A stretch of 18,011 nucleotides of DNA from Nephromyces sp. MM_2019 (lineage: Eukaryota > Apicomplexa > Aconoidasida > Nephromycida). The DNA lies in the NCBI GenBank assembly GCA_015657535.1, contig JADHZB010002139.1, positions 17,997 to 36,007 on the forward strand, written 5' to 3'. The notes beneath the pieces were generated by a model. That model was not told the DNA's origin and ran no database searches. It was given only the letters and a program-made list of their open reading frames with translations. The translations under genes and the position numbers were made by a program. Shown here one piece after another: positions 4,756 to 17,604 of the stretch; the stretch's first letter is position 1; each line of letters begins with the position of its first letter.

Positions 4756-5969
4756 TTAATTTTTAGTAAGATTCTCTATAGCTTGCCAAATCCAATGTTT
4801 CTTAGTGTTTCCACGTTCATCCAGCAAACCAACAAATTTTAAAATATCAAATTGAAGTCGATCAAAATGAATATCTACATAACCAAATCTTTCTAATAAC
4901 TTAAATCCACACACACACACACACACATATATATATAAATATATATAGCTAAATATCATATACATATATACACACACATATAGGTATATTTATGTATAAA
5001 TAACAGAATAGTATAAAGATAAACAAATTTTCATACAAGGTGTGTAAATGTGTATAAATAATATATAAATACATAAATTATGTAATTATCATAAATGGCA
5101 AGGGTGTATGATAATTTAAGTATGTATGTATATGTATATAATAAAATATATATATATGAGAGTGTCGTGTGAGTGTGTGCTTTATATTGTATGTGTGTGT
5201 GTGTTTTTTTTGTGTGTGTATGTGTAGAGTGTGTGCTTTTTATTTTGTGTGTGTATATGTATTGTTTATGTGTGTGTTGTATATTTTGCTTGTGTGTGTG
5301 TGTAAATTTTGTGTGTATTTATTTTGTGTGTGTGTGTATGTGTTTTGTAATTTGTGTATTTGCTTTGTGTTTTGTTTGTTTGCTTTGTATTTAATGTGTG
5401 TGTGTATATTTTGTGTGCGTGTATATTTTGCGTGTGTGTATATATATACCTGTAATGACCCATAAAAACAAAGTAATGATCTCGTACTCCTAAATAAAGT
5501 GGGGCTAAAAATAAAACCAAAACCACAGCCAATTGCAAATCCAAACAAAAATTTTTTGTTTTTTAATTTTTCCAAAACTTTAAAATTCATTGTCATTGTA
5601 TAACAATATTGAGCAGTTGCTGGTTGTTCAGCTAAATATGTGTGTGTAAAAATAAATTTATTATATATTAGTAAATAAATAGAAATCTATTGTATTAATT
5701 ATTTGTATAACTTATATAACATTTACACGTATATATTTATTCACACTCATTAGACACATATATAATTATGCGAACACATACAAAACATATTTATATTTAT
5801 GCACACGCATACAAAACGCTTATATGATAATGCATATACACATAAAAGCATATGTATATTTACGTATATACAAACACATGTACACACACACATATGTTTA
5901 TTTACGTTCATTTGGATTCATATTATTTGGAATCATTGGTGTGGTTGAATAGTCATTGTTGTTCTGCAT
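4756..5969 (-). CDS. FUN14-domain-like small membrane protein (3 exons)
   Basis: Exons on the minus strand are 5969-5906, 5631-5450 and 4899-4756 (TAA), with phases 1 and 0 matching at both joins. The predicted product is 129 aa. Residues 1-36 are a polar Asn/Thr/Gln-rich leader. Residues 49-64 are hydrophobic and glycine-rich (FLFGFAIGCGFGFIFS), followed by a second hydrophobic patch ending in SLQ at 82, then LLERFGYVDIHFDRL. FUN14 proteins share a glycine-rich membrane segment, then Leu-Gln, then a GYI-x-[VI]-[DN] motif about six residues on. The spacing here matches, and the length suits the family (about 120-155 aa). FUN14 proteins such as mammalian FUNDC1 sit in the outer mitochondrial membrane and act in mitophagy and ER contact. 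No YxxL receptor motif is visible in this leader, so that role is not supported. Donors are GTAAAT and GTATAT; acceptors are ATTTAG and TTTAAG. The start ATG has A at -3. I am fairly sure of the exons and less sure of the family. Confidence 0.68.
4900..5449 (-). other. Intron 2 of the FUN14-like gene
   Basis: This 550-base phase-0 intron is CA-rich on the coding strand at its 5' end (plus-strand GT domain 5160-5440) and ends in a (GT)n run just before TTTAAG. GTGTGTGTATATAT at 5432-5445 lies beside the donor and is exactly complementary to ATATATACACACAC at 4964-4977, so the transcript could fold over the intron. Confidence 0.7.
5632..5905 (-). other. Intron 1 of the FUN14-like gene
   Basis: This is a 274-base phase-1 intron with donor GTAAAT and acceptor ATTTAG on the minus strand. 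ACACACACATAT at 5884-5895, nine bases inside the donor end, is perfectly complementary to ATATGTGTGTGT at 5636-5647, four bases inside the acceptor end. The arms could therefore close a stem right at both splice sites. Confidence 0.72.
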
Positions 5970-8023: not shown

Positions 8024-10021
8024 TTAATTATTTGTCAATAATAATTTTCTAAGTTTTTTTCCATCTTGGGAGATTTCAATGTTTTTAATTATTGGTGAAG
8101 TTATACATAATTTGATAAAGTTGATGTTTTTGGTTAATGAAGACACCTTGTTAAAGCTTGCAATCAATGAGAGGTTTACCCATCCATCTGGGTCTAATTG
8201 AGATAATAGAAATGTGTCATTATAAAAATTCTTATCTGAAAAGTAATAGTCAATTTGCCGACGAATTGAATTCCTTAACTTAGTTAATTTAACTAGAATT
8301 AAGTCTTCGGTATCTAACGTTACAGAGTCCGGTTTATTTGAAGATAGATTAAATTCAAATCCTATATCTACTTGAGGTATAGATTGTAAGCTTATCTCTC
8401 CAATAATTTCATGATTCAAAATATGTCCATCGCCTACCTTCTGGAAGCACATTGAGAACATGCGGGCCGCTTCTATAAATTTCATCATTGATTCTTTCTT
8501 ATCAATGTGTTGTTTTGGTTGAGTATTGGTTGTGTTAGCTAGGGGGGGCTTTTCAAGATTTATCTCCTGATTGTTGTTATTATCAAGAGATTGATCTTGT
8601 AGGTTTGTATCGTTTGTAATATTTGCACCATTTATATCCAAGGGTGATATAAACTGTGTATTCGGAGAAAATTCATGGCCAAGATCTTGCGAATTACTTA
8701 CTAGGGAATAATATGTTCTGTTACTAATACTAAGAGACGAATTGGGAGAAGCTGGCTTCATCAAAATACATAAATGTGTTAGATCTTGTAAATTGTGTAT
8801 TTTTATTTTAAATCGTTCTTTATTTATCAATTGGCTAATCTTAATTGTGCCTTTAGCTATTAAGTAGGACTCGAATTTAGCAAGCCTAGGTTCAGATAAG
8901 CATGGCAGTCCCTTCTCCATATAAAACAAGCAATAGCGTATCCAATGGCCAGGATTAAGCTGTTCTAGTATATAAGAAGATTTTGACGATAAGGGCCTGA
9001 AATAAGTATCATCAATATTGGGTATAGATGTAGAAGGTTCAGCAAGTAATAACGATGAGCAAAAGTTTTCTAAAAACGATTCATTCGAACTTTCATTTCC
9101 AGAAATTGGGGCTGGAGTAGATGGTGTCTCAAGGGGATCAGGATATTGAGTGTTACTCGTTTCCAAGGTTGGTTCATTGCATAAAATGTTTGAAGAATCC
9201 TTCATGGGTATTGAGGAATCTGATAATTCCCTAAGACCTATGGGTAGAGATGGAAGATGAATTGACGATACTGACGCTTGAGAGTCATTTTCCTCTTGAA
9301 ATTCATTGGTAGAGCTCATGCTTATCTTAGTAGAGTTACTGGTTATATCTGTGTTATTCGGGAATGAAGTAGGATGGGGTTTTTTTGAGTTATTGGGGAT
9401 GTTGGAATTATTTGCGTTATCCTCTGTCAATTCGGAATCAACTGAAAGCCTTGGAATCTTGCGAGAAGGCCTAGATTTGTTATCCTCATTACTATCAAAT
9501 TGATATTTCTTCTTTTGTGGAGGGTTGTGGCTGGCTGGGTCATCATCTTTGTTCGATCTATCGTGGCGTGGAGTGTCGATTATGAGGTTGTTATCTCTAG
9601 GTCGCTCATATCTTGGAAACTGATCAAAGTTAATGTGTCGTACAATCGCAGTAATGTGATCATTTTCATGGATAAGATGTATAGGTTGGTGGTCAGGTAA
9701 TTCAAATTGTTCAATTAGAAGTTGAATACAGTAGGGAGTGGGTAAGGGTGATAGTGATATATGTGGTGTCGAGTAGGGTTGTCGGGTAGTGCCTTCTTCA
9801 GATGGAAAAAAAGTTTGTAGGATGAGTTTTTTTAGTTCAAAAATTGAGCTAACGGCATGTGGAGGAATCCAAAACCAGCACTGCCAAGGAAGGGAAGAAG
9901 TCTTCTCGTTTGAGATAAGATTTGATGAGACTGTGAATGGAGATAATCCCGATCTAATAGGTGTGTTTGTGACGACGGGTAGGCCACCATTTGAAGCATG
10001 GAAAGATAACTTCACCCTCAT
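8024..10021 (-). CDS. Coilin-like protein with C-terminal La-type RNA-binding domain
   Basis: Single uninterrupted exon, 665 aa; the start is the first ATG after an in-frame TGA four codons upstream. Residues 1-135 match the coilin N-terminal ubiquitin-like fold: a first strand (VKLSF), CWFWIPP at 48-54, a helix, and QLLIEQFELP..HLIHENDHITAIV (100-127), which parallels the coilin pattern ending in LPP..RDND..RV. Residues 168-191 are basic (KKKYQF, RPSRKIPR), a likely nuclear signal. Residues 195-345 are Ser/Asn/Thr-rich and disordered. Residues 352-400 (LNPGHWIRYCLF..LPCLSEPRLAKF) resemble the Tudor-like domain that ends animal and plant coilins. Residues 578-660 are a La-type winged helix retaining the six RNA-contact residues of human La: Q589, Y592, Y593, D602, F604 and F623. 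No RRM follows, unlike La and LARP7. Coilin scaffolds Cajal bodies; La domains bind the oligo-U 3' ends of small RNAs. The fusion suggests a nuclear small-RNA role (inference). Divergent from the HMG-box gene. Confidence 0.93.
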   Translation of the reverse strand: MRVKLSFHASNGGLPVVTNTPIRSGLSPFTVSSNLISNEKTSSLPWQCWFWIPPHAVSSIFELKKLILQTFFPSEEGTTRQPYSTPHISLSPLPTPYCIQLLIEQFELPDHQPIHLIHENDHITAIVRHINFDQFPRYERPRDNNLIIDTPRHDRSNKDDDPASHNPPQKKKYQFDSNEDNKSRPSRKIPRLSVDSELTEDNANNSNIPNNSKKPHPTSFPNNTDITSNSTKISMSSTNEFQEENDSQASVSSIHLPSLPIGLRELSDSSIPMKDSSNILCNEPTLETSNTQYPDPLETPSTPAPISGNESSNESFLENFCSSLLLAEPSTSIPNIDDTYFRPLSSKSSYILEQLNPGHWIRYCLFYMEKGLPCLSEPRLAKFESYLIAKGTIKISQLINKERFKIKIHNLQDLTHLCILMKPASPNSSLSISNRTYYSLVSNSQDLGHEFSPNTQFISPLDINGANITNDTNLQDQSLDNNNNQEINLEKPPLANTTNTQPKQHIDKKESMMKFIEAARMFSMCFQKVGDGHILNHEIIGEISLQSIPQVDIGFEFNLSSNKPDSVTLDTEDLILVKLTKLRNSIRRQIDYYFSDKNFYNDTFLLSQLDPDGWVNLSLIASFNKVSSLTKNINFIKLCITSPIIKNIEISQDGKKLRKLLLTNN

Positions 10022-10587: not shown

Positions 10588-11390
10588 GTGTTGCTTGCTA
10601 CACATAAATCTATTAGTATTTATTAGTAATATATATTTTTGTTATTATCTCGTGTGGCACTCATTATACTTTACAGCTATATTATATATATATATGTTTT
10701 TAAGTGTTGTTTGCACACATAGCATTTCGTAGATAAAAACAGAAAAAAATAATGTACATCGAGTTTATATAAACTGTATTTATTTTATACACACATTTAC
10801 CCAAGCGTTTCCGAAATGTGTGCTGATCTATGTAACATTCTTATGTTCTTCAAGTTTCTAGAAATATATATATTGTGTGTGTACAAGGGTATGCCTATAA
10901 TAGTTCATAAATGTTGTCTGAGCAGTAGATATTGTAGTTCTAATATTTATATATATATATATATATATGAAAGGGTCGAGTAGTGCCGGTGTGATATTTA
11001 TATGCAATCTGAATATTTTATATATATATTTATATATATATATATATTTAAACATATATATTATTTATTTCCGTATTTATATAATGTGTAGTCATCTATT
11101 TGTGTTTTTATACAAAATTTATGGAATCAAATTGAACTTCGGATATACTCACATCTATGTACGACCTGCGCATGTGTGTATGTTCGCATTGTATATGTGT
11201 TTATGCGCATATGTGTTTGTGAATATTATAAAAGAAATATATGAAAATTTTGTTCAATATATTTTCCAAGATATGAGAGTATTGGTTTTCTGCAAGATAC
11301 TTGAAATCAAATCTTTTAAGCTAATTTGATTCATTTTGGAATTTTTGTTTCTGAATTTTGTAAATTAGAAATTAAAATTTTTATTAAACC
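10588..11390. other. Ambiguous complex islands and a 120-codon open frame
   Basis: The plus strand is open from ATG 10967 to TGA 11329 (120 codons). It begins MKGSSSAGVIFICNL, passes through TA-repeat Ile/Tyr codons and ends VFCKILEIKSFKLI. A 55-codon plus frame precedes it from ATG 10817 and contains GMPIIVHKCCLSSRYC, faintly like the HxxxL core of BTB domains. On the minus strand the same DNA gives a clean exon candidate at 10857-10801 (acceptor TTTCTAG, donor GTAAAT, NLKNIRMLHRSAHISETL) and an open stretch near 10890-11000 (NITPALLDPF, RTTISTAQTTFMNYYRHTL). Sense and antisense readings compete and no family is certain. Confidence 0.25.
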
Positions 11391-11537
11391 AATAAAGAAA
11401 AATAAATTTTAAATTTATCTATTCAACCCAATAAAGATAAATAAATTTTAAATTTATCTATTCAACCCAATAAAGATAAATAAATTTTAAATTTATCTAT
11501 TCAACCCAATAAAGATAAATAAATTTTAAATTTATCT
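11391..11537. repeat. 39-bp tandem repeat, 3.8 copies
   Basis: Units begin at 11391, 11430, 11469 and 11508; the last is cut off after 30 bases. Copies two and three are identical, and copy one differs only in GAAAAAT for GATAAAT. Each unit contains CTATTCAACCC. From copy two on it also contains a GATAAAT..ATTTATC inverted repeat (7-bp stem, 9-base loop). It contains no TG/CA repeat, unlike other tandem arrays in the window. Confidence 0.95.
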
Positions 11538-12050: not shown

Positions 12051-12516
12051 ACTCTCCATACAACTTTTACATACTAACTTCTTGAAATGGCCATATATAT
12101 ATTTCTAAGTGTAGCCTCTTGTTATCTTTGTCGATCAAATTTCAAATATATTACAAATCTAGTACAACTCTAAACACACACTTTCCCTGTTTGAAAATAT
12201 TTTTTGTGTAACTTATAATCTCATCAAATGATAATGACGATTTCCTAGCTTCGATTTGACAGCTTGTCTGTTATCCAGAAATACACATAATTTCGTATAT
12301 TTGAGGAATAAATTGAAATTACCCTCTGCCTAGAGGGCCGGGGTATTTATGTCTCTTATAACATACATCTTACTAGGATTTACCTCCATTTACTCTTTTA
12401 AAGTAAGGCCACTTTCACCGAGACAAACACCCTTGATTTGACACACCTCATCTATCTGGAGGACTGGGTACCTATTGATACGATTTGGTACTCATTCCGC
12501 TCCTTCAGCTCTACCT
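12051..12516 (+). promoter_or_regulatory. Upstream region of the HMG-box gene
   Basis: About 470 bases are more complex and less AT-rich than other intergenic DNA, suggesting 5' UTR or promoter. The reading frame of the gene is open upstream from 12442, after a TGA at 12439, and reads HTSSIWRTGYLLIRFGTHSA before the first ATG. A spliced upstream exon therefore cannot be excluded. I see no recognisable promoter element. Confidence 0.4.
12322..12337. promoter_or_regulatory. GC-rich hairpin upstream of the HMG-box gene
   Basis: CCCTCTgcctAGAGGG forms a six-pair perfect stem with a four-base loop and is followed by CCGGGG. It stands out because GC clusters are almost absent from the rest of the non-coding DNA. 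Its role is unknown; it could be a 5' UTR structure or a protein site. Confidence 0.5.
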
Positions 12517-15500
12517 ATGGACATACACACACACACCCAAATGAAAGGTAAAGACAGGCAACCCTCCTACCTCTTATCTATCCTACCCGAACAGCTTCAC
12601 TATGGGAGACCCTTCCAATTCCTCCCCCAACTCCTCGAACTCCACTCAGCCTACAAGGAACTCTACTCGGAGGCTACCAGGGCCTCCGAAGAAGACAATT
12701 CATTCGATGAACTCGATAACCTATTACCTACATACCAACGAATCCTTGAATATCGTCAATTTCTTGCTAATAAGGCCTTTGAGAACGTAACTAGGCAACA
12801 CACATTCGAATTAGGTACCAGTGTACCTACAGCCCTGAAAATAACCCTGGAAACCAAACATGACATATCCAACATCCAAAACACACACACACACGATATA
12901 CCTCCCAGCGATACATTACCATCAACTCAAGTAGCTCCTAGCAACACACAAAACATAAATCAAGATGATATATCAGCTTCAATTCATGATTACACCCCTT
13001 CATCAGCTGAGACTCATCCCCCTTCATCAGCTCAGATTACAAACATATCAACAGAATATCCCTCATCAACTCATTATCACACGTCACCATCAATTGAAGC
13101 TCCCACTCCACAATCAACTCAGACCCAACATGCATCGACTGAAACTCCTTCTCCTCGATCTATACACACATCATCATCTGAATATCCCGCTCCACAATCT
13201 ACACATTTAACAACTGAAACACATTCTAACCAAAATTCGGATGTTAAACAAGAGTGGGATATATTAAATTTCAGTTCAAACTCCTCAAAACCTACAGCTC
13301 CAATTGAGGATACAGCTGAGAGCTCACATACACCACACACATTCAACCTTGTTGAGACATCTATTAAGGACAAAGGACCAACCATAAATCCTGACTTTCT
13401 GGGGCTACACACATCTTCTATCACATATGAAAACACACCTTACTCACACCCACCTACTCTAGATGATTATCCTTACCAACTATTATCAGATGATTCTGCA
13501 GAAATAAATGTTGGGGGTATAGATTCTATATATTTCCCTCTATCAGACAAACCCATTTCTTGGGCTAATTTCCCTCAAAATGATGAAGATCCTAAGAATA
13601 AATTTGAGGATGAAGATGAAACCAATCTGAGTTTAAGCACACGAAATTCACACAAATACCTCTTCCACCAATTTTGTTCATTATTTTTGCACACAGATAT
13701 AAATTGTGCTCATGGGAATGCACTTGAGGCTAGTTTAGCTGATTCTGCATTCTTACATGAACAAATATTACTTGAATATGGTTTTCAAGGGTTAATACCC
13801 CTCATGACTAAGGAGTTAACAAACACACTTCTCAACAATAAGGATAACACAGACTTAACAGCTCCACCAGAAGATGATACATTACCATATTCTGATTCTG
13901 AAGAAGAAGAAGAATCAAAGGGTATATGTGAACCAAAAGAAAATTATCTAAATGATCTACAAACACCTCAGATTTATATAAGGAAGATGACACATCGTTT
14001 GTTATCAAAACAATCACCCGCTAATGTTAAACCACAAACATTAGAAAAATTATTAAATATACTTACAAATTTTATATGCAAATCAAAACAATTAGTTATG
14101 GCCATTATGTCAGGTGGTCAAGATATTGAAGCATTGGTTAAACCATTATTAGGTTATATTATATTACAAAATGAAACGGCTTGGACTGAACTTGAACAGG
14201 GCAATCAAACCAATAATAAATTACTAAGACCACCCTCAAAGCCCTCATCATCTACATCATCACCCGCAAGTATCAAACCTACTAAATTAGAAACTCCTAA
14301 TGATTTTACACACACACATAATGATCCGCATCACCCGCATCAACATATTTATGCACGTGATGTAGTAAACTTTGTGGATAAGACACGTCTTGTGTATGAT
14401 GTTATGGATGCCGCAAATCCCGATAACACAACGGATACATCTGCTACGGATGTCACAGACAAATCAAAAATACACCGTATCAATGCATACACACTCTTTT
14501 ATCAAGATAAGAGTAAAGAAATCGAAAAATCAGGCAATAAAATAACGAAAGAACAATCAGATCATATACAAAAACTGTGGCAATCACTTCCGCAAACTGA
14601 TAAAAAGTATTGGACCAATCAAGCAGCTAGTAAAAATCGTATTACTGGTCAAAATCCACGTAAGAAATCTACACGCGGTTTAACAGGTTATCATATATTT
14701 GGACAGGAAACACGTGCAGATTATAAGAATACACAACGTTCATTGGGTGACACATTACAGATACAGAATGCAACCCTCTCTAAATTATGGCAAGAATTGA
14801 ATACAGAAGAACAGAAAATATATCATGAGAAAGCGAGAGAATTCAATGAGAAAAAGAGAGAAGATTATCGTCAATCTGTATATATAAATGATGAAATACG
14901 TGAAAGTTCAGATGATGTAGAAGGTGATGAAATCGGTAATAATAACTTATTGGAAAAACATAAATCTAATACAAAACGTTTAAATAAAGAATGGACCTAC
15001 CCGCAAATGATTGATGCATTTACACTATTTTCTAGTGAAACATTAGATGGTTTAAATAGACAGGGAACTTTATTACCCAAAACTGCAGAAGCACAAAATT
15101 CATTAGCATTACATTATTGGCAAATGTTAACAGAAGATGAGAAATGTGAATGGGCAGAAGAAGCTATGTTATTGAAAGATCAACAACAAGGTGTTGTTGA
15201 TTATCGTACAAAATTACCAAATTATCCACATAAGAAACGTATAAAACATACTCAACCACATTTTCAATACACACAACCAATTGAAGAAAATAATTATGAA
15301 AAAAATATGTTTTATGAGCCACACACACAACAACATACCCTTTATAATGATCCAAATAATTTCTATCCACCTCCTATACATCATAATACATATCCGCCTA
15401 TTATTCAACCCAATATAAATCATACACATTATGCGCCTATTGGATATGGTTATACAAGTGGTGTATATACACCTTCAAATTATACTCCTAGACCTAATTT

Positions 15501-16124
15501 ATTACACACACCTGTTCTAAATTCACATACACCTACACACCTTCATCAAATCAATGCATCATTCCCATCATCAACCTCTCAAACAACTGCACACATTGAT
15601 ACACACATGCCATTCCCATCACCTAATACATACTCAAATACACTCCAATCACAACAAGGACCTACACTCCAAACATATATTAATAATACACACCCTAATG
15701 TTACACACACAAATGATACAATGTTAACTTACACACCCCAAAATAATAACATGAATAATGTACCTATGAGATATTTTCAAAATCAGTACTCACATGCACT
15801 TAGTATACCTAATGATTCAAATGAAACTACACACACACACAAATTTATTGGTGATAAAACTGTGTGTAATAATTACCCTACACATGATATAGGGTATACA
15901 CATACACAACACAATCATATATATAATGAAGAACATAACTCACTATCTAATATATTATGTATACCTGATCACACACATTTAGATGATATGTGTGTAGATA
16001 TACTTGATGAATCAAATATTGTGTGTAATACTGATGATGTTTGTATTAAATCAACCACCAAACGACCTCAATTTCAAAATGATGCTAAATTCTTCTCTGA
16101 AATACCCAATCCTATTCAATCAAC
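12517..16124 (+). CDS. Triple HMG-box chromatin protein, exon 1
   Basis: One long exon encodes 1202 full codons counted from the ATG at 12517; another ATG lies at 12541. Residues 25-110 form a helical, unrecognised region. Residues 120-276 are Ser/Thr/Pro-rich with degenerate repeats (PSSAQ, PQSTQ, PQSTH). Acidic runs lie at 362-368 and 459-467. Residues 482-556 form another helical region. HMG box 1 is at about 654-706 (INAYTLFYQDKSKEI..LWQSL..KKYW), box 2 at about 715-786 (TGYHIFGQETR..LWQEL..KIYHEKA) and a weaker box 3 at about 820-892 (DAFTLFSSETL..YWQMLTEDEKCEW). Residues 906-1146 are His/Asn/Thr/Pro-rich. HMG boxes bend DNA in the minor groove; tandem boxes occur in UBF- and HMGB-type chromatin factors, so a nuclear architectural role is likely. 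An apparent TAA at 16126 overlaps a GTAATT donor at 16125. Reading it as an intron joins it in phase to the exons at 16486 onward, which lack a start of their own. CA tracts inside the exon encode Thr-His pairs. Confidence 0.92.
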
Positions 16125-16485
16125 GTAATTATACACATATATATAAATATATATATATTTATATATACTTGTGTATGTATGTATGTGTATTTTATTATGT
16201 ATATGTGCCTATATCTGTTTATGTCTATGTGTGTATATATGTTTGTAATGCCTATGTGTGTATATATGTTTGTAATGTCTATGTGTGTATATATGTTTGT
16301 AATGTCTATGTGTGTATATATGTGTGTATGTGTGTATATATGTGTTTATGTGTGTATATTTATGTATACATGCAAGTATAATTGTATATGTATATAATTT
16401 CATGTATTTGTTTGTATATGTGTGTATCTGCGTAATTCTCTGTACATATATATATGTGTGTGTCTTGGTTTAAATTTTATTTTAG
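16125..16485 (+). other. Intron 1 of the HMG-box gene, with 27-bp tandem repeat
   Basis: This 361-base phase-2 intron runs from GTAATT to TTATTTTAG. It contains three full copies and one partial copy of a 27-bp unit starting at 16224, 16251, 16278 and 16305 (core TCTATGTGTGTATATATG). ACACATATATATA at 16133-16145 near the donor is exactly complementary to TATATATATGTGT at 16447-16459 near the acceptor. Confidence 0.75.
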
Positions 16486-16769
16486 TGAGGAAACTAACCC
16501 AGAAACTTCAAATAATGAAACACCAAAGAGTTCATATGAACCTATGGGTCAAAGTGTACCTCCAAGTAAATATGAGTGTGTGTATATATAATATGATAAT
16601 ATTTTATGCTATATATATATATATATATATATATATTTCAGAAAAGGAAACTGTTTGGACAATCATCAAACGAAATCGTCGACAAAAAACCGCCCTAGAA
16701 CGTCAAAAGGCAAAATCTCAGGCCAACAATCCAAACCTTCAAAATGTAAGTATTTGAGCTTACACACAC

Positions 16770-16832
<63 letters not shown>

Positions 16833-17604
16833 TACACATACACACACAACGCTATAATTTTGCAGCTATTTGCAGCGCCAACCAGTGCAATAACACCAAC
16901 CAGGGCATTCGATACTCAAACTAATAAAGACCCTCTACTTAGTTTATTTGGTAAACACATATATATATATATATATGTAACATAATATATTTATACACAC
17001 ACACAAACACTCACACATACTTACATATATATAAAATTTATATACACATACACACATAATTATTTATATATGTGTAAATATAGATTTACCTAATCCATCC
17101 AACTCAAATAATATGGACTTGAATTTCTTTGATCAACCCTCACAATCATCAGGTATTATAAATTGTGTAAATTTAATTTAATATTTTTGTGATTATATAT
17201 AATTTACACACACACACACACAAATTCATATAAACATTTATTTTAGATTATATATATATATACATATAAATAAATGTGTGTGGTATATATACATATATAT
17301 AAATGTGCTACATATATATATATATATAAATAAATGTGTCTGGTATATATACATATAAATAAATGTGTGTGTTGTATATACATATAAATAAATGTGTGTG
17401 GTATATATACATATAAATAAATGTGTGTGTGTGTGTATGTAAATTAATTTATAGGCCAAGCATTGCGTGTTAATAATAGTGGTGAATTAGTTATTAATGA
17501 AAATGCTTCATCGTCCATTAATCCAAACTCTGACCAAACTCTCCAATCACTGTTAGAGGGGAGATTAAGTGTAAATGAAAATTTAGTCAACTCACAAGTA
17601 ATTT

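Follow-up and report, generated by a model that had tools for sequence, protein, structure and literature searches.

An uninterrupted open frame in the window

In the window (the whole 18,011-nucleotide stretch of DNA that was analysed), we identified an open frame of 665 codons plus stop that runs from ATG to TAA on the minus strand at 8024..10021. It is read from 10021 down to 8024, and the plus strand of the same interval contains many stops when read in frame. From its N-terminus, the predicted protein comprises a coilin-like domain (residues 1-140; 9602..10021, minus strand), a basic stretch whose sequence suggests a nuclear localisation signal (residues 169-191; 9449..9517, minus strand), a region modelled as a small beta barrel, located where coilin carries its Tudor (residues 352-400; 8822..8968, minus strand), a linker mostly predicted to lack structure (residues 401-577; 8291..8821, minus strand; pLDDT <50 over residues 402-576) and, as its last domain, a La motif without an RRM (residues 578-660; 8042..8290, minus strand). 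Nuclear Cajal bodies are built by coilin.

The first-pass annotation had proposed an intron-free frame of 665 codons here, and this was borne out. The locus holds 668 stop-free codons at 32-40% GC. Since about 7% of random codons would be stops at this composition, such a run is not due to chance (of the order of 1e-21 by our own arithmetic). The 48.3 Mb assembly contains a single copy of the frame, and GC3 is even along its five segments (0.32, 0.34, 0.31, 0.30 and 0.27). We considered that the true gene might be larger or another one altogether, either because exons were missed or because two neighbouring genes were joined in the reading. Introns do exist elsewhere in the genome, in the tubulin gene and in a separate La gene, and the assembly appears mixed (an FtsZ-like contig by our own reading; GC from 0.30 to 0.48). 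Against this, the length of the stop-free run, the even GC3 and the coincidence of the frame's ends with domain ends (the start codon precedes strand 1 and the stop lies just past the La motif) make such a misreading very improbable.

Several other features lie in the window. A 1217-aa frame on the plus strand (12475-16128) shows HMG-box sequence in three places (Pfam HMG_box_2, E 7.4e-13) as well as Thr-His-rich stretches; it is arranged head to head with the minus-strand frame, with a gap of 2.4 kb between them. Between these two genes, at 11375-11537, a 39-base unit is repeated 4.3 times with a 96% match. GT/CA tandem arrays are found at 91-615, 16762-16848 and elsewhere (30 overlapping rows at a score of at least 80), and because such repeats lie inside coding frames, these frames carry Thr-His runs. 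On the minus strand, the first third of a 118-aa frame (5240-5596) resembles a membrane-spanning exon of another gene.

The protein ends in a lone La motif

The C-terminal domain was recognised by Pfam La at 70 bits (cut-off 37.1; E 1.5e-19; residues 586-637). Structures in the PDB were matched by sequence, with LARP1 first (E 4.1e-10), then human La (7.7e-10), a second La, 2m5w (9.2e-10), which we take to be that of Dictyostelium, LARP7 (2.7e-8), LARP6 (4.8e-6) and LARP4 (3.9e-5). By these matches, the motif could belong to the La-like or to the LARP1-like class. All six residues of the pocket that holds RNA 3′ ends are kept in the alignment with human La: Q589, Y592, Y593, D602, F604 and F623, opposite what are presumably Q20, Y23, Y24, D33, F35 and F55 of the human protein. 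The La domain with intact RNA-contact residues read by the first-pass annotation is well founded, and the protein is filed as a La-motif protein of the LARP superfamily. The residue that follows F623 is Asn, as in both La proteins aligned, whereas LARP1 has His there. The LARP1 motif has a nucleotide stacked in between the last adenine and His368 (PMC11259064, in excerpt); by our own reading of the alignment, His368 would be the His opposite this Asn.

A Pfam search with an E-value limit of 1 gave no RRM after the La motif, which ends at residue 660 and leaves five residues before the C-terminus at 665. As it lacks an RRM, the frame is not a La/LARP7 module. The same Pfam search likewise gave no match to the DM15 cap-binding region of LARP1. 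A protein search with the La region returned two relatives among 188 candidates; both are from plants and have a La domain by itself.

These features raise the alternative that the protein is of the LARP1 kind, in which a long disordered region precedes a lone La motif that holds the poly(A) 3′ ends of mRNAs, and that its likeness to coilin is due to chance or too remote for function. LARP1 as the best PDB match, the missing RRM and the two plant relatives are consistent with it, as is the behaviour of the stand-alone LARP1 La motif, which bound A6 11-fold better than U6 and lost binding 200-fold with a 3′-phosphate (PMC11259064, in excerpt). However, human La is equally close, the residue after F623 is Asn rather than His, and DM15 was absent from the Pfam matches. 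Together with the N-terminal evidence described below, this leaves the LARP1-like reading unlikely, though it is the foremost rival.

The N-terminus is probably related to coilin

The first-pass annotation had also read a coilin-like N-terminus. Pfam Coilin_N scored the whole protein at 22.1 bits (E 1.5e-4), below its cut-off of 32.9, and residues 1-140 alone at 18.2 bits over 28 profile positions; this sub-threshold score also speaks for a LARP1-like protein. In a six-frame search of the assembly with Coilin_N, the frame reached 19.7 bits, compared with 19.5 bits for an unrelated Thr-His-repeat frame (loci L004 and L008; 1770 aa with a PHD-finger-like stretch), whose match we take as chance. 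By Pfam's rule, the frame is thus not a Coilin_N member, since its score falls below the cut-off, and we therefore built our own coilin profiles. An Arabidopsis query gave 591 matches at E up to 0.001 among 7991 candidates, of which the 120 listed were available for profile building: a plant-only profile was made from 34 of these, and a combined profile joined 23 plant coilins with three manually entered animal N-termini.

The plant-only profile matched the frame collinearly over two segments (residues 36-71 and 95-124), and its score of 10.8 bits for residues 1-140 was reached by 1 in 5000 shuffles. With hhalign, the single sequence aligned weakly with the plant alignment (probability 2.3%, P 0.021). 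The combined profile gave 16.6 bits for residues 1-140, well clear of the best of 10,000 shuffles (10.3) and of the best among 387 control pieces from elsewhere in the assembly (8.2). These control pieces were frames of at least 100 aa from sampled loci, some of them overlapping, with the Thr-His-repeat locus included and the two loci of the window excluded.

Individual residues were compared in the alignment with 26 coilins. Human R8 corresponds to R2 of the frame, D79 to D121, D40 to E62 and R36 to S58; among the 26 coilins, the R8 column is conserved in 25, the D79 column in 24 and the R36 column in eight. R2 and D121 are also invariant in an alignment with 17 plant coilins. In human coilin, R8 and D79 serve self-association and R36 contacts Nopp140 (PMC9556525, in excerpt); the residues at the self-association positions are thus present in the frame, and the Nopp140-contact residue is not kept (Ser58). 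The alignments further place the start of the frame at the first strand, as in coilins.

Structure prediction was run on the N-terminal end. In an alignment-free model of residues 1-140, the elements are ordered as in a ubiquitin-like fold, though the pLDDT is low (41.8). A coilin-guided model contains four of the six elements of the N-terminal domain, with strands 4 and 5 absent, at a pLDDT of 40.5; it leaves even the certain La motif unfolded, and its alignment included no La-motif relative. Neither the model of residues 1-140 nor the other poor model had a Foldseek match with an E-value of 0.001 or below. In all, the coilin-like N-terminus stands by our own profile, which exceeds every control, and falls short by Coilin_N. 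We consider kinship with coilin likely on these sequence comparisons; the protein is not filed as a coilin, and its N-terminal likeness is read as likely homology. The profile result and the retention of R2 and D121 argue against a protein of the LARP1 kind.

The Tudor-like region claimed for residues 352-400 received no support from sequence: Tudor_Coilin (PF23086) gave no match on the frame at E up to 10, and 1916 of 10,000 shuffles scored as high as the segment. The small beta barrel at this place is a prediction of the same coilin-guided model.

A separate La gene and the make-up of the assembly

The assembly carries at least two La-motif genes, the frame in the window and a second one (L002/L007). 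At L007 (3471-5080), this separate gene encodes a La motif, followed by one intron and a DUF3223-like exon. The DUF3223-like domain scored 20.8 bits (cut-off 21; E 5.6e-4), a direct search of the genome for DUF3223 gave no match, and no Pfam RRM was found in the gene. The alveolate La protein Mlp1 has a La motif and DUF3223 without RRM1 (PMC9705548, in excerpt), and by its domain order the L002/L007 gene is a La of this type. The first-pass annotation had suggested that the fusion replaces an interaction made between separate proteins elsewhere. This is unsupported, as a separate La gene is still in the assembly; because of it, any function of the fusion would come on top of existing ones instead of taking their place.

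In tetranucleotide composition, stretches of the two contigs that carry this La gene and the tubulin exon described next are similar to the window (correlation 0.917 for L007 and 0.925 for L016), with lower values for the short loci immediately around the genes (0.829 for L002 and 0.836 for L009). An alpha-tubulin exon on contig C210 matched PDB chains 7tnt (701.5 bits) and 7miz (701.4) best, followed by 9r4x (687), 6u42 (676), 6u0h (662) and mammalian chains near 620 bits. We take 7miz to be from Toxoplasma, 6u42 from Chlamydomonas and 6u0h from Tetrahymena. The host is probably an alveolate near Apicomplexa, and the frame, the La gene, the tubulin gene and other genes likely come from one genome. 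The FtsZ-like stretch mentioned above lies on contig C173 (L010), and other contigs have 40-48% GC; the assembly looks mixed. Searches of the assembly for Nopp140 (SRP40_C, 25.9 bits; cut-off 28.6) and SMN (19.6 bits; cut-off 22.7) yielded only pieces below threshold.

A predicted nuclear scaffold that grips RNA 3′ ends

A coilin-La fusion in one frame had been proposed by the first-pass annotation. Its La end is firm, its coilin end stands as likely, and its Tudor is not borne out. For the protein as a whole, we favour a likely coilin-type N-terminus joined to a clear C-terminal La motif, and give about an even chance to this acting as a scaffold that assembles itself in the nucleus and takes hold of small RNAs by their 3′ ends. 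For a scaffold of the coilin type speak the profile that scores above all controls, the retained R2 and D121 and the predicted barrel at the place of the Tudor; against it stand the sub-threshold Coilin_N score, its near-tie with the Thr-His-repeat frame, the weak hhalign result, the two poor structure models, the lack of a Tudor in the sequence, the loss of R36 and the sub-threshold Nopp140 and SMN pieces.

Which RNA ends a lone La motif might hold was considered separately. For Mlp1 of Tetrahymena, binding is lost when the La motif (1-95) or the middle domain is taken by itself (PMC9705548, in excerpt). Given this result, the A6 preference of the LARP1 motif and the lack of an RRM, an oligo-U preference like that of La and LARP7 is not assumed for the frame. 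The LARP1 and Mlp1 findings both argue, by analogy, against an RNA clamp of the proposed kind, as the lone LARP1 motif prefers poly(A) and the Mlp1 motif alone does not bind. Nevertheless, we favour small nuclear RNA ends over poly(A) as the probable ligand, since the other end of the protein is coilin-like and the Asn after F623 is La-like. U6 snRNA genes are present in two copies on contig C195 (L033 and L034, 1501-1608 in each; 102.6 bits each), and in the copy that was read, seven T follow the gene; with this T7 end, U6 is a plausible ligand.

The Mlp1 finding bears on a further alternative, in which the protein is a coilin-like scaffold whose La motif has become a protein contact or lost RNA binding. 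This would fit the missing RRM and the lack of any domain after the La motif. In contrast, all six pocket residues are kept and the stand-alone LARP1 La motif does bind RNA, so that we regard a non-binding La motif as improbable, well behind a LARP1-like protein.

Under the favoured reading of a scaffold gripping small-RNA ends, the protein would enter the nucleus by means of its basic stretch (residues 169-191), and its N-terminal domains would associate through R2 and D121, as those of human coilin do through R8 and D79. The lone La motif would then capture small RNAs that are abundant, U6 among them, by their free 3′-OH ends, and the captured RNAs would gather in a Cajal-body-like condensate. 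The fusion would act beside the separate La protein of the assembly. The fuller proposal, that coilin became fused to an RNA 3′-end clamp in an alveolate, probably in the apicomplexan line, so that the scaffold of the Cajal body would itself take up the ends of small RNAs, we place just short of an even chance.

The architecture was not met elsewhere in our searches. No La domain is present among the precomputed Pfam domains of the 120 listed coilin relatives (of 591 matches), and a search with the full-length protein through 6909 candidates (366-1164 aa; search words from the first 500 residues) gave no relative with an E-value of 0.01 or below. In agreement with the earlier statement that no coilin-La protein had been described, no description of such a protein or fusion was found among the best matches in the openly licensed PMC literature, nor was a described coilin from the apicomplexan line.

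In our view, the field has yet to agree on what tethers RNA substrates to Cajal bodies. If the interpretation is true, the joining of a scaffold to a 3′-end-binding motif would suggest that holding RNA 3′ ends belongs to the scaffold's job, and one molecule offers a test of this. Arabidopsis coilin binds RNA non-specifically (PMC3539977, in excerpt). The finding would also extend the range of coilin towards a parasite group for which the best literature matches included no coilin work, and strong divergence would be one reason why profile searches in that group could fail.

Comparison with known systems

Compared with genuine La and LARP7, which have a La motif and RRM1, the frame shares the La motif and its pocket residues but has no RRM, and its La motif is the last domain where theirs is the first. 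Like LARP1, its best PDB match by sequence, it has a stand-alone La motif; unlike LARP1, it has no DM15 among the families searched, Asn in place of His, and a coilin-like front end. With Mlp1-type alveolate La proteins (La motif and DUF3223, no RRM1; PMC9705548, in excerpt), it shares a La motif without RRM1 and, probably, the same broad lineage; it differs in lacking DUF3223, and it is the separate La gene of the assembly that is of that type. Relative to the coilins of Arabidopsis and human (PF15862, PF23086), the frame departs in its sub-threshold Coilin_N score, in a Tudor not seen by sequence and in the loss of R36. It resembles them in an N-terminal domain recognised by our own profile with R8 and D79 kept, in a long unstructured middle with a basic stretch and in a predicted barrel in the C-terminal half, and to this plan it adds a La motif at the end.
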